Source of the DNA: Flavobacteriales bacterium
Lineage (GTDB): Bacteria > Bacteroidota > Bacteroidia > Flavobacteriales > UBA1820
Assembly (NCBI GenBank): GCA_017537565.1
Contig: JAFYKQ010000011.1
Location: 1 to 43,302 of the forward strand
DNA length: 43,302 nucleotides
Direction: 5' to 3'
The notes below the pieces were generated by a model. It was not told where the DNA came from, did no database searches, and was given only the letters and a program-made list of their open reading frames with translations. Below, in pieces: positions 31,293-33,842 of this stretch; within the stretch, counting starts at the first letter, position 1; each line of letters opens with the position of its first letter. A program made the position numbers and the translations under genes.

Positions 31293-31682
31293 TTATTTCT
31301 TTTCCTCAAATTCTATCTCGTAATATTTTTTCTCGGGTTTGGTAATGGCTCCCGTAGCCGCGTCTATACCCCAACCCAATATATCACACAGATTGATAAT
31401 AGAAACCGGGTTAAATGTTTTATACACCTGGATATACACAGGCTCATATCCTTCGGCTTCGGCTTTCACGTCTGAATAATCAAATCCACGACGCACTTTT
31501 ACAGTATATGGGAATGTTATGTTGCGATATTTATTACCATCTATAGTAAGAGTTGCTTTTTCTACTTGAGTAGAAGAATCAAATGTTACTTTGGCTCTTG
31601 AGCCACAGAATATAGTAGCACAAGAGGTAAACATAGCCATACACAATACTGCCACTATAAATAAAGATGTCGTTTTTTTCAT
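31293..31682 (-). CDS. small PEGA-like lipoprotein
   Basis: 129 residues. The signal peptide ends in the lipobox FTSC (Cys21). The mature part begins ATIFCGSRAKVTFDSS and has a PEGA-like strand pattern (ATLTIDGNKYRNITFPYTVKV), then ends in a hydrophobic, glycine-rich segment with GWGIDAATGAITKPEKKYYEI. Many short lipoproteins with the CATIF...DAATGA pattern occur in Bacteroidetes and Proteobacteria; none has a firm function. Expected location is the periplasmic side of a membrane. A structured-RNA candidate with its own terminator ends about 70 bases upstream of the start codon. Confidence 0.75.
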   Translation of the reverse strand: MKKTTSLFIVAVLCMAMFTSCATIFCGSRAKVTFDSSTQVEKATLTIDGNKYRNITFPYTVKVRRGFDYSDVKAEAEGYEPVYIQVYKTFNPVSIINLCDILGWGIDAATGAITKPEKKYYEIEFEEKK

Positions 31683-31750
31683 TTTAAGATATAAGTATTA
31701 GATTTTGTACAATATGTGATTGGCCCTTACAGATAATGACGCACATACAT

Positions 31751-31981
31751 AAAAAAGACGCGGGCCACCTTTTCAATCTGCTGTTGAGGTCTTAGACTAC
31801 CTGAGGCACAAATATCAAAGTGAGCCCACGCCATATAACGTAGACATCAACTTCATTTCCTTGCCTCATATGAAAGTGTCTAAGTTTCAACAGACAGAAA
31901 TAAAGCTAACGCTTTTCCTTATATCTTAAAATGTATGCACCGTAAAGTGCTAATGCTCCATAAGCTTATTATATTATTTTA
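31751..31981 (-). ncRNA. candidate structured RNA, 6S-like or novel
   Basis: The 345 bases between uvrC and the lipoprotein gene hold no protein gene but dense pairing on the minus strand. Helix A is three nested stems: TCTG/CAGA plus CTGTTGA/TCAACAG (31898-31887 with 31787-31777), CTTAGAC/GTCTAAG (31884-31878 with 31797-31791) and TGAGGCA/TGCCTCA (31868-31862 with 31808-31802). Helix B is GGCGTGGGC/GCCCGCGTC (31832-31824 with 31765-31757), extended by CACTTT/AAAGGTG, and leads straight into six U. B's 5' strand lies in A's loop and its 3' strand outside A, so the two form a pseudoknot or alternate. A small AAAGC-GTTA-GCTTT hairpin (31915-31902) lies 5'. Promoter box TATATTTG is at 31995-31988. 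About 230 nt would suit 6S RNA; the family is not proven. Confidence 0.55.
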
Positions 31982-31987
31982 TACTCA

Positions 31988-31995
31988 CAAATATA
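31988..31995 (-). promoter_or_regulatory. -7 box for the candidate RNA
   Basis: TATATTTG on the minus strand, in the context ATTCAC-TATATTTG. A near-identical context (ATTCGC-TATATTTG) precedes the lipoprotein gene at 41398-41405. The nearest TTTG is 25 bases upstream, slightly beyond the usual spacing. Confidence 0.5.
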
Positions 31996-32027: not shown

Positions 32028-33842
32028 TCATATAAAATCATTTAATGATTTATAATGTTGTATGATAAGACTAGCCTTGGCCTCTCCTATAACAGATGCT
32101 AGTTCCTCCCGCGAAGCCTCTCGCACGGCATCTACCGTACGAAATACTCTAAGCAGGTTCTCTTTGGTCTTTTCTCCCACGCCTTTTATATCGTCCAGTT
32201 CAGATGTAAGAGCGGCCTTGCTACGGCGGTTGCGGTGATGTGTTATACCAAATCTATGCGCTTCGTCACGTAACTGCTGTATCACACGAAGCGTCATAGA
32301 ACGACGGTCCAGATACAGCGGTATAGGGTCATCGGGATAAAATAGTTCTTCCAGACGTTTGGCTATACCTATGATTTTTACCTTATGTTCTATACCCAGA
32401 CGACACAGTATCTCATATGCCGATGATAACTGTCCCTTACCTCCATCTACTATTATAAGGTCTGGCAGGCTTTCACCCTCGTTTATCATACGGGAATAAC
32501 GACGTGTAATGACCTCGGCCATAGTAGCAAAGTCATCTGCACCTACCACCGTACGCACATTAAAATGACGATAATCTTTCTTACTGGGACGACCGTCACG
32601 GAATACGACACAGGAAGAAACGGCATTGGTACCTTGTATATTTGAGTTGTCAAAACACTCTATATGACGTGGTGGACGGTCCAGATGCAGGTCTTCCTGC
32701 ATAGTCTGCATCAGGCGGGTAGTATGTGCTTCGGGGTCGGTGATACGTTCCTTGTTAAGGCGTTCGGCTCGTGCCATACGTGCATTTTTTTCTGATAGTT
32801 CCACTATCAATCGACGTTCACCCTTCTGTGGGACGATGGTTTTCACTCCGTCGCCCAGTTCTATATCTAGCGGGATAGAAAGCAACACTTCCCGCGATGT
32901 AGAAGAAAATCTCTCTCGCAATTCCACCACAGCTAGTTGCAGTAGTTCTTCGTCACTCTCGTCCATACATTTTTTCATCTCCATAGTATAGGACTGAATA
33001 ACCGAACCCTGTACTACGTGCATATAATTGACATACCCCGACAGCGAGTCTGACACGATAGAAAACACATCGGCATCTACCACACGGCCTCCTGCCACAG
33101 TAGAACGAGACCTGTAATTATACAGACGTTCTATCTTTTCCTTTATCTCTTGCGCCCCTTCGAAGTCCAGCTGTGAGGCTCGCTGCATCATATCTTCTTT
33201 CATCTCCTTTAACACTTGGGAAAAATGCCCGCGTAATATCTGGTGTGCCATTTCTATATTACGCTCATACCTATTCTGTGATATAAGCATAGCACAGGGA
33301 GCAGCACAGCGTTTTATATGATATTCCAAGCATATCTTCACACGTCCTTCCTCTATCGCCTTTTCATTAAGCGTGTATTTACAGGTGCGTATAGGGAACA
33401 GGTCCTTTATAACGTCCAGCACCAGACGAGCCGTACCTACATCGGGATAAGGCCCATAATACGTACTACCGTCATCTATCTTTTTACGTGTGAGGAATAT
33501 ACGTGGGAAGTCTTCGTTTTTGACACATATCCACGGGTAAGTCTTATCGTCCCGTAGCATAATATTGTATCGTGGTCGCAGTGATTTTATAAGATTATTT
33601 TCCAGCAATAGTGCTTCGGCCTCGTTTTCCACCACGACATACTGCACAGATGCTATCTTGGATACCATAACGCGTGTTTTGGGCGAATGTCCACTGCCCT
33701 TAAAATATGAGCTGACGCGTTTTTTTAGGTTTTTGGCCTTACCTACATATAGTATGGCACCATCACTGTCATAGTACCTATACACACCGGGGTCTGACGG
33801 TATGGTTTTAAGTATAAGGTCTATATCCAGCGTGTTTGCCAT
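32028..33842 (-). CDS. uvrC: excinuclease ABC subunit C
   Basis: Makes both incisions in nucleotide excision repair with UvrA and UvrB. 604 residues (E. coli 610). The N-terminal GIY-YIG nuclease has GVYRYYDSDG and ILYVGKAKNLKKRVSSYF; a Cys-bearing segment (KICLEYHIKRCAAPC), a UVR motif (DFEGAQEIKEKIERLYN) and the RNase H-like nuclease (ECFDNSNIQG, IIVDGGKGQL, HRFGITHHRNRRSK) follow. A C-terminal HhH pair contains IKGVGEKTKENLL. It starts seven bases after the S41 peptidase gene and is the last gene of the rsh operon. No terminator is obvious after it. Confidence 0.95.
   Translation of the reverse strand: MANTLDIDLILKTIPSDPGVYRYYDSDGAILYVGKAKNLKKRVSSYFKGSGHSPKTRVMVSKIASVQYVVVENEAEALLLENNLIKSLRPRYNIMLRDDKTYPWICVKNEDFPRIFLTRKKIDDGSTYYGPYPDVGTARLVLDVIKDLFPIRTCKYTLNEKAIEEGRVKICLEYHIKRCAAPCAMLISQNRYERNIEMAHQILRGHFSQVLKEMKEDMMQRASQLDFEGAQEIKEKIERLYNYRSRSTVAGGRVVDADVFSIVSDSLSGYVNYMHVVQGSVIQSYTMEMKKCMDESDEELLQLAVVELRERFSSTSREVLLSIPLDIELGDGVKTIVPQKGERRLIVELSEKNARMARAERLNKERITDPEAHTTRLMQTMQEDLHLDRPPRHIECFDNSNIQGTNAVSSCVVFRDGRPSKKDYRHFNVRTVVGADDFATMAEVITRRYSRMINEGESLPDLIIVDGGKGQLSSAYEILCRLGIEHKVKIIGIAKRLEELFYPDDPIPLYLDRRSMTLRVIQQLRDEAHRFGITHHRNRRSKAALTSELDDIKGVGEKTKENLLRVFRTVDAVREASREELASVIGEAKASLIIQHYKSLNDFI

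Follow-up and report, generated by a model that had tools for sequence, protein, structure and literature searches.

A family of structured leader RNAs in Bacteroidota with two mutually exclusive folds and hypervariable, self-complementary tips

Introduction

Structured leaders of a single class may stand before many genes of a genome, as in multi-copy riboswitch regulons such as those of the c-di-GMP riboswitches. In attenuators of the trp type, four segments upstream of the regulated gene pair as 1:2 and 3:4, the latter forming the terminator, or as 2:3 (and 1:4). For the antisense attenuators of the pT181 type and their synthetic derivatives (STARs), changes in the loop and upper stem have been described to give orthogonal pairs (PMC3753616). 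Among the Bacteroidota, structured 5' regions without an Rfam match are listed for Flavobacterium psychrophilum (PMC9723704), and a member of the family described here may be among them. We found no description of a known leader of this kind in the literature, of which the Bacteroidota transcriptome papers were covered in part.

Here, we analyse an RNA encoded between uvrC and a lipoprotein gene of a Flavobacteriales bacterium (contig JAFYKQ010000011.1, assembly GCA_017537565.1; "the window" is the whole stretch of 43,302 nucleotides that was analysed). The original prediction for this locus, made from its sequence, had proposed two helices, A and B, that interlock as a pseudoknot or exclude each other as in a switch, and had considered a promoter-mimicking 6S RNA, a new regulatory RNA or a leader of the downstream gene.

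Results

A check of the open reading frames in the window agreed with the prediction that the gap between uvrC and the lipoprotein gene is devoid of protein genes, and a tRNA and tmRNA scan of the gap found neither. The anticipated -7 box ahead of the RNA is present, as TATATTTG at 31995-31988, and the lipoprotein ATG lies 70 nt past the core of the RNA, as had been stated. The locus is organised as follows:

31293..31682, minus strand: cargo gene, coding for a 129-aa lipoprotein, with its ATG 70 nt 3' of the RNA core
31751..31982, minus strand: predicted short (terminated) transcript of ~232 nt, with the promoter box and the U-tract as ends
31753..31916, minus strand: core matched by covariance model R1 (121.9 bits, E 2e-21)
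31950..31961, minus strand: mini-ORF AUG GAG CAU UAG, 5' of the core; a similar arrangement of AUG, few codons and stop occurs in many copies
31988..31995, minus strand: -7 promoter box TATATTTG, seen in the sequence (Bacteroidota consensus TANNTTTG)
32028..33842, minus strand: uvrC, the upstream neighbour, from locus comparison

The lipoprotein of the window had no Pfam match. Its ortholog in a second genome (G002) is 81% identical and also lies behind the RNA, and an Alistipes homolog (61%) has the RNA as well. An obligatory tie of the RNA to this lipoprotein family was rejected because homologs at 33-42% identity occur without the RNA. In the window, a perfect 13-bp complement (up to 16 bp with its neighbours) is found between 31930-31918 and 31695-31683, the latter directly 5' of the lipoprotein ATG; pairing here could mask the start of the gene, but the complement is unique to the window copy. 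As this helix between the pre-core and pre-ATG segments, perfect in the window, is not conserved, it was omitted from the model.

The window RNA folds much better than its dinucleotide shuffles (z = -4.5 over 231 nt and, over the 136-nt core, -5.5; 0/200 shuffles were as good), and positions 31751-31982 of the minus strand encode a real structured RNA. Its helices fall into two alternative states:

31844..31912, minus strand: hairpin I of state 1, with the stem 31912-31896/31860-31844 (MFE fold)
31889-31885/31875-31871, minus strand: tip hairpin of hairpin I, UGAAA/UUUCA, the loop of which carries the 5' strand of H2
31757..31832, minus strand: hairpin II of state 1, terminator-like, corresponding to helix B of the original prediction
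31832-31824/31765-31757 and 31822-31817/31771-31766, minus strand: stems of hairpin II, 9+6 = 15 bp
31813-31808/31781-31776, minus strand: upper helix of hairpin II, AUUUGU/GCAGAU, at a helix position conserved in relatives
31802-31799/31790-31787, minus strand: tip of hairpin II in the window fold
31751..31756, minus strand: U-tract of six U directly after hairpin II; the matching positions in other copies are T-rich
31781..31893, minus strand: whole span of helix A of state 2, in which pairing is conserved and sequence hypervariable
31893-31887/31787-31781, minus strand: H1 of helix A, from covariation
31884-31878/31797-31791, minus strand: H2 of helix A, from covariation
31868-31862/31808-31802, minus strand: H3 of helix A, from covariation
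31824..31845, minus strand: apical hairpin H4 of state 2 (31845-31837/31832-31824), 98.7% paired in relatives
31722..31766, minus strand: H10, GGCCC 31766-31762 with GGGCC 31726-31722, from covariation of the arm with the downstream segment

Both helices of the original prediction were thus recovered, helix A as three nested stems that could be placed as H1, H2 and H3, and helix B as 15 bp ending in six U (31756-31751). The segment UUGAUAUUUG, however, had been described as single-stranded between the helices and is not; its AUUUG is paired in state 1, and relatives have a conserved helix there. The 3' arm of H4 is the very strand used by hairpin II in state 1. For the terminated RNA of the window the two states are nearly equal, with state 1 favoured (-69.6 vs -68.5 for state 2); when the RNA is extended to the ATG, state 2 is favoured (-87.1 vs -83.2). 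The helix that closes state 2, P0, is weak in the window copy.

No Rfam family matched the RNA. With Rfam 15, which includes Bacteroidales-1, Flavo-1, Bacteroides-1 and Bacteroid-trp among others, nothing in the window or its relatives reached the gathering threshold; in the window, permissive thresholds gave only chance-level matches, and twenty loci bearing the RNA gave no match to the element. The 6S models RF00013 and RF01685 matched nothing in the window, the related loci or the whole genome. The hallmark of 6S RNA, a single long hairpin whose central bubble is large and resembles an open promoter, is absent, two alternative folds being found instead; moreover, the supposed promoter mimic is paired, and eight copies in one genome lead different genes. 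Model match, anatomy and copy number all speak against the 6S reading, which was therefore rejected. It was also observed that RF00013 and RF01685 match nothing genome-wide in the 97% complete genome of the window (G000); its 6S RNA is therefore either very divergent or absent.

A DNA search detected a second copy in the same genome, 74% identical, and relatives in the genus too. Searching public genomes with the conserved 5' motif returned at least 119 stretches, nearly all from Bacteroidota; among the matches listed were Alistipes, Chryseobacterium, Dysgonomonas, termite-gut Dysgonamonadaceae and Symbiothrix, together with a Candidatus Merdimorpha stercoravium contig that corresponds to genome G003, from the same genus as the window. 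An alignment of 59 copies, the first set, was the basis of covariance model R1. Invariance of the 5' AAAGCGUUAG in this set is biased, because the motif had served as the search pattern, and a second set was therefore collected with the model. R1 found eight copies in the window's genome, which is a Merdimorpha relative, five, one and one in three genus relatives, matches in 73/295 sampled Bacteroidia genomes, and one match each in five genomes of the phylum that lie outside the Bacteroidia. No match was found in a plasmid collection (72,556 sequences, two queries) or a phage collection (50,697 sequences, one query). Viral contigs searched with a first pattern gave three contigs, two of which carry the element; a second pattern gave none. 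On the comparative data, these copies form a phylum-wide, apparently undescribed family of leader RNAs, in keeping with the earlier alternative of a new regulatory RNA.

Some matches call for separate mention. Typical Bacteroidota copies of the RNA occur on contigs labelled Heliobacteriaceae (L051) and Sulfurospirillaceae (L117), both probably mis-binned. Near position 1500 of L040 and L041 lies a different repeat with the same AAAAGCGTTAGCTTTTATTTT start, followed by GGCAC..GAG..GCTCGCGCCAGCAGGG, which is not this RNA. Finally, upstream of a DNA methyltransferase-like gene in L047 (1123-1525), the 5' part of the RNA occurs as two tandem copies at a distance of 183 nt.

Compensatory changes among relatives, on which the original prediction had staked helices A and B, are present in both. 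In the first set, the nested structure of helix A and H4 is paired in 92.7% of cells. Changes on both sides of a pair occupy 458 cells of the nested helix A structure, compared with 141 in shuffles and a maximum of 108 for slid structures, and they touch every pair of H2 and nearly all pairs of H1 and H3, in an all-against-all scan too. Helix B (H6) is 97% paired in relatives, also with changes on both sides. In the 91 copies found with the model, each stem of helix A had 241 to 308 such cells, H6 had 31 and H4 had 19; as this alignment was fitted to the state-2 structure, these counts are tilted towards helix A and H4, not towards H6. Nested helix A is also a palindrome in the DNA, and part of the covariation could therefore stem from template-switch repair.

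H6 and H4 compete for one strand, and 57/59 relatives keep both pairings, the mean stem energies of which are equal (-12.0 and -11.7 kcal/mol). When H6 was forced, most relatives formed hairpin I (Pmid, H5 and the tip GAAA/UUUC) and hairpin II (H6, H7 and the tip GGU/ACC) with the U-tract behind it; under forced H1 and H4, the outcome was helix A and H4, closed by P0. Across 58 relatives, forced state 1 gave Pmid in 56, H5 in 45, H8 in 40 and H9 in 57, and forced state 2 gave H1 in 56, H2 in 55, H3 in 44, H4 in 58 and P0 in 47. The state-1 helices are 93.9% paired, better than shuffles and slides, and the counterparts of hairpin I (Pmid, H5 and H8) are 90-95% paired in the 59 relatives. Comparison thus indicates two mutually exclusive, conserved folds, and the claim that helices A and B exclude each other as in a switch is borne out by covariation for both. 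By the same evidence, two nested folds account for more conserved pairs than does a pure pseudoknot of A and B.

The energetic evidence is not the same for the two hairpins. For 84 copies found with the model, the mean z was -6.5 for the whole RNA, -4.7 for the right (3') half alone and -1.8 for the left half alone, that is, the left hairpin by itself is only weakly better than shuffles. From these values for the half RNAs, hairpin II appears to be selected as a hairpin of its own, and the case for hairpin I to be more comparative than energetic. In relatives, state 2 exceeds state 1 in stability by a mean of 12 to 13 kcal/mol, suggesting that state 1 would need to win kinetically, by co-transcriptional folding.

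The conserved pairing of helix A goes together with marked divergence of its sequence. One termite MAG has 14 copies whose core outside the stems is 91% identical, with only 32% identity in H3, 41% in H1 and 65% in H2; each copy nonetheless pairs with itself. The predicted pairing of the 5' tip with the 3' tip is -24.9 kcal/mol within a copy and -9.5 across the 14 copies, and a copy's own partner is its best in 14/14 cases there and in 8/8 in the window's genome. As judged from these sequences, the tips are hypervariable from copy to copy within a genome but remain self-complementary in every one. The divergence among copies would be explained by selection against cross-talk, and template switching at inverted repeats could speed the changes.

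The position of the copies points to a leader, one of the alternatives given in the original prediction. Among the 91 copies found with the model, 67 are followed within 100 nt by the start of a same-strand ORF (median of those, 50 nt), against 10 on the divergent side, and copies mostly lie 25-90 nt ahead of a start codon. A TANNTTTG box is found upstream of 106/161 copies (15.1 expected in shuffles), and a mini-ORF of AUG, few codons and stop upstream of 57/161 (28.1, sd 5.1, in shuffles). This mini-ORF lies between promoter and RNA, has up to two codons between AUG and stop, and often takes the form AUG-RNA-UAR. At the U-tract positions the fraction of T is 0.79-0.86 in 76 copies, over a background of 0.26. 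H10 covaries, with a score of 12.68 for a copy's own pairing and 10.68 (sd 0.24) for permuted partners; the arm's partner in many relatives is a hairpin loop immediately 5' of the start codon. This start-codon hairpin is missing from a subset of the copies that precede DNA methylase genes.

The cargo genes are unrelated accessory genes, which often code for exported proteins or lipoproteins and sometimes for restriction-modification functions. By a crude measure of hydrophobicity, not a signal-peptide predictor, 43/67 close downstream proteins (64%) have a hydrophobic N-terminus, compared with 34% of 449 control ORFs. Their Pfam families are diverse: the commonest, DNA methylase, occurs in 6/104 cargo proteins, and GmrSD, Eco57I-type, RteC and peptidase C39/ABC proteins were found singly.

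Related genomes differ in the presence of the RNA and in its cargo. In G001, uvrC is directly followed by a convergent gene, with neither RNA nor lipoprotein; in the window the convergent gene comes after both, and in G002 the RNA and the lipoprotein are present after uvrC. Hence, RNA and gene are present or absent as one unit. At the pyrH locus of the window's genome (L288:6919-8887, C71) and of G002 (L289:4485-5240, C14), the RNAs are nearly the same and lie within orthologous flanks (RNA and flanks about 84% identical), and the cargo gene is different, coding for a GmrSD-type restriction protein in one genome and for a 180-aa protein unrelated to it in the second. Homology ends 20 nt past the RNA core and returns at the stop codon. 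Tandem units followed by a deletion would also explain this exchange. Between the uvrC loci of the window and G002 the lipoprotein is the same (81%) and the tips are different; a third locus has kept its tips as well as its gene.

Discussion

We propose that the RNA is probably a cis-acting leader that works as a transcription attenuator, with antitermination by pairing of the hairpin tips; its structure and position rest on comparison, and we infer its termination and expression. The anatomy of an attenuator is there, with a hairpin and U-tract between promoter and gene and a mutually exclusive antiterminator fold. From its own promoter, RNA polymerase would make the two hairpins of state 1, in which segments 1:2 and 3:4 are paired. 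Hairpin II with the U-tract is a predicted intrinsic terminator, at which transcripts could end at ~232 nt. Alternatively, the tip of hairpin I would invade that of hairpin II, some 20 nucleotides pairing as helix A. In the resulting state 2, segments 2:3 and, in most relatives, 1:4 would be paired; formation of helix A would dismantle the terminator stem, H4 would form instead and the polymerase would continue into the cargo gene. Once free, the 3' arm could pair before the start codon, with a segment or a hairpin loop (H10). We infer from this arrangement that state 2 is the on state. The tips, which differ in each copy of a genome, may act as a private code, possibly so that one leader does not switch another. 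A protein, the ribosome on the mini-ORF, a ligand or the terminated RNA itself are possible triggers. A ribosome on the mini-ORF could sway the choice of fold, although the mini-ORF is not universal, and as the cargo genes have no common function the signal is obscure. It also seems possible that helix A alone serves a translational or trans function.

A bolder form of this proposal, to which we give a low probability, is that of a portable, self-addressed module. Promoter, attenuator and cargo gene would move or be exchanged as a cassette, and the terminated leader would, by way of the private code, exert feedback in trans on its own leader as this is being made, giving an RNA-only dosage control for each accessory gene. 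A genome would then hold a natural set of orthogonal attenuators diversified by selection against cross-talk.

Some of the same observations could be accommodated by a leader whose main effect is on translation, either an orphan riboswitch or a protein-binding RNA. The conserved core (GAAA, UUUC, GGU and ACC around H2) would bind the ligand or protein, and the change would reach the start codon through H10. The core nucleotides conserved between variable helices do look aptamer-like, H6, H4 and H10 resemble a platform, H10 covaries just 5' of the start codon and the read-through energies favour state 2. We nevertheless consider this reading unlikely, since the strongly conserved U-tract after hairpin II points to transcription, the subset before DNA methylase genes lacks the start-codon hairpin, and the cargo genes are functionally unrelated and not linked by a metabolite or ion, as those of a riboswitch regulon are.

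The element might instead be in the first place one of DNA, a palindromic site for the attachment or recombination of a gene cassette with promoter and one cargo gene, its RNA fold being a by-product or serving to protect the site. The joint presence or absence of RNA and lipoprotein after uvrC would fit, as would the change of cargo at pyrH between conserved RNA and flanks, and copies in the termite MAG are often near contig ends. A DNA site, however, has no need of a U-tract, a promoter, alternative folds or a strict orientation to the gene, the surroundings of the copies that were read showed no recognisable recombinase gene, and the plasmid and phage collections gave no match to the three queries; we regard such an origin as quite improbable. 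An independent, trans-acting small RNA, including one like 6S, with only incidental proximity to a gene, carries very little weight in our judgement. Its own promoter and terminator-like end would give a discrete transcript of ~232 nt, and a 6S RNA recognisable by Rfam has not been matched in the window's genome; against this stand the placement of 67/91 copies within 100 nt of a same-strand ORF, pairing that reaches the start-codon region, and the eight copies in a genome where none resembles 6S RNA.

If attenuation by tip pairing is right, a large, unrecognised class of bacterial leader RNAs exists in a gut-dominant phylum, controlling accessory genes, among them those of surface lipoproteins and restriction-modification, for which no other regulation is known. 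The orthogonal RNA attenuators built by hand in synthetic biology would have a natural counterpart in the hypervariable yet self-complementary tips. The swap of cargo behind an almost unchanged RNA also offers a handle on the exchange of accessory genes.

The family resembles several described systems in part. With 6S RNA (RF00013, RF01685) it shares a length of roughly 200 nt and long helices, but it consists of leaders in many copies, not of a free-standing gene, and matches neither in sequence nor in structure. Integron cassettes with attC likewise join a palindromic element, variable in sequence but conserved in fold, to individual accessory genes that can be exchanged; in contrast, the element described here precedes its gene, carries a promoter and a U-tract and occurs in dispersed single units, and no integron integrase was recognised beside it in the regions read. 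Multi-copy riboswitch regulons differ in that the genes of the present family have no common function or known ligand, and its codes are diversified between copies. The alternation of 1:2 and 3:4 with 2:3 (and 1:4) before a regulated gene is that of trp-type attenuators; unlike these, the family has no leader peptide rich in one amino acid, its pairing tips are hypervariable, both of its states are long conserved folds, and one family serves many unrelated genes. In pT181-type attenuators and STARs termination is also decided by the pairing of hairpin tips, but their partner is a separate antisense RNA, whereas here the partners lie within one RNA and a single genome has a large natural set of orthogonal codes. 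The known attenuators share their logic with this family but do not include it.
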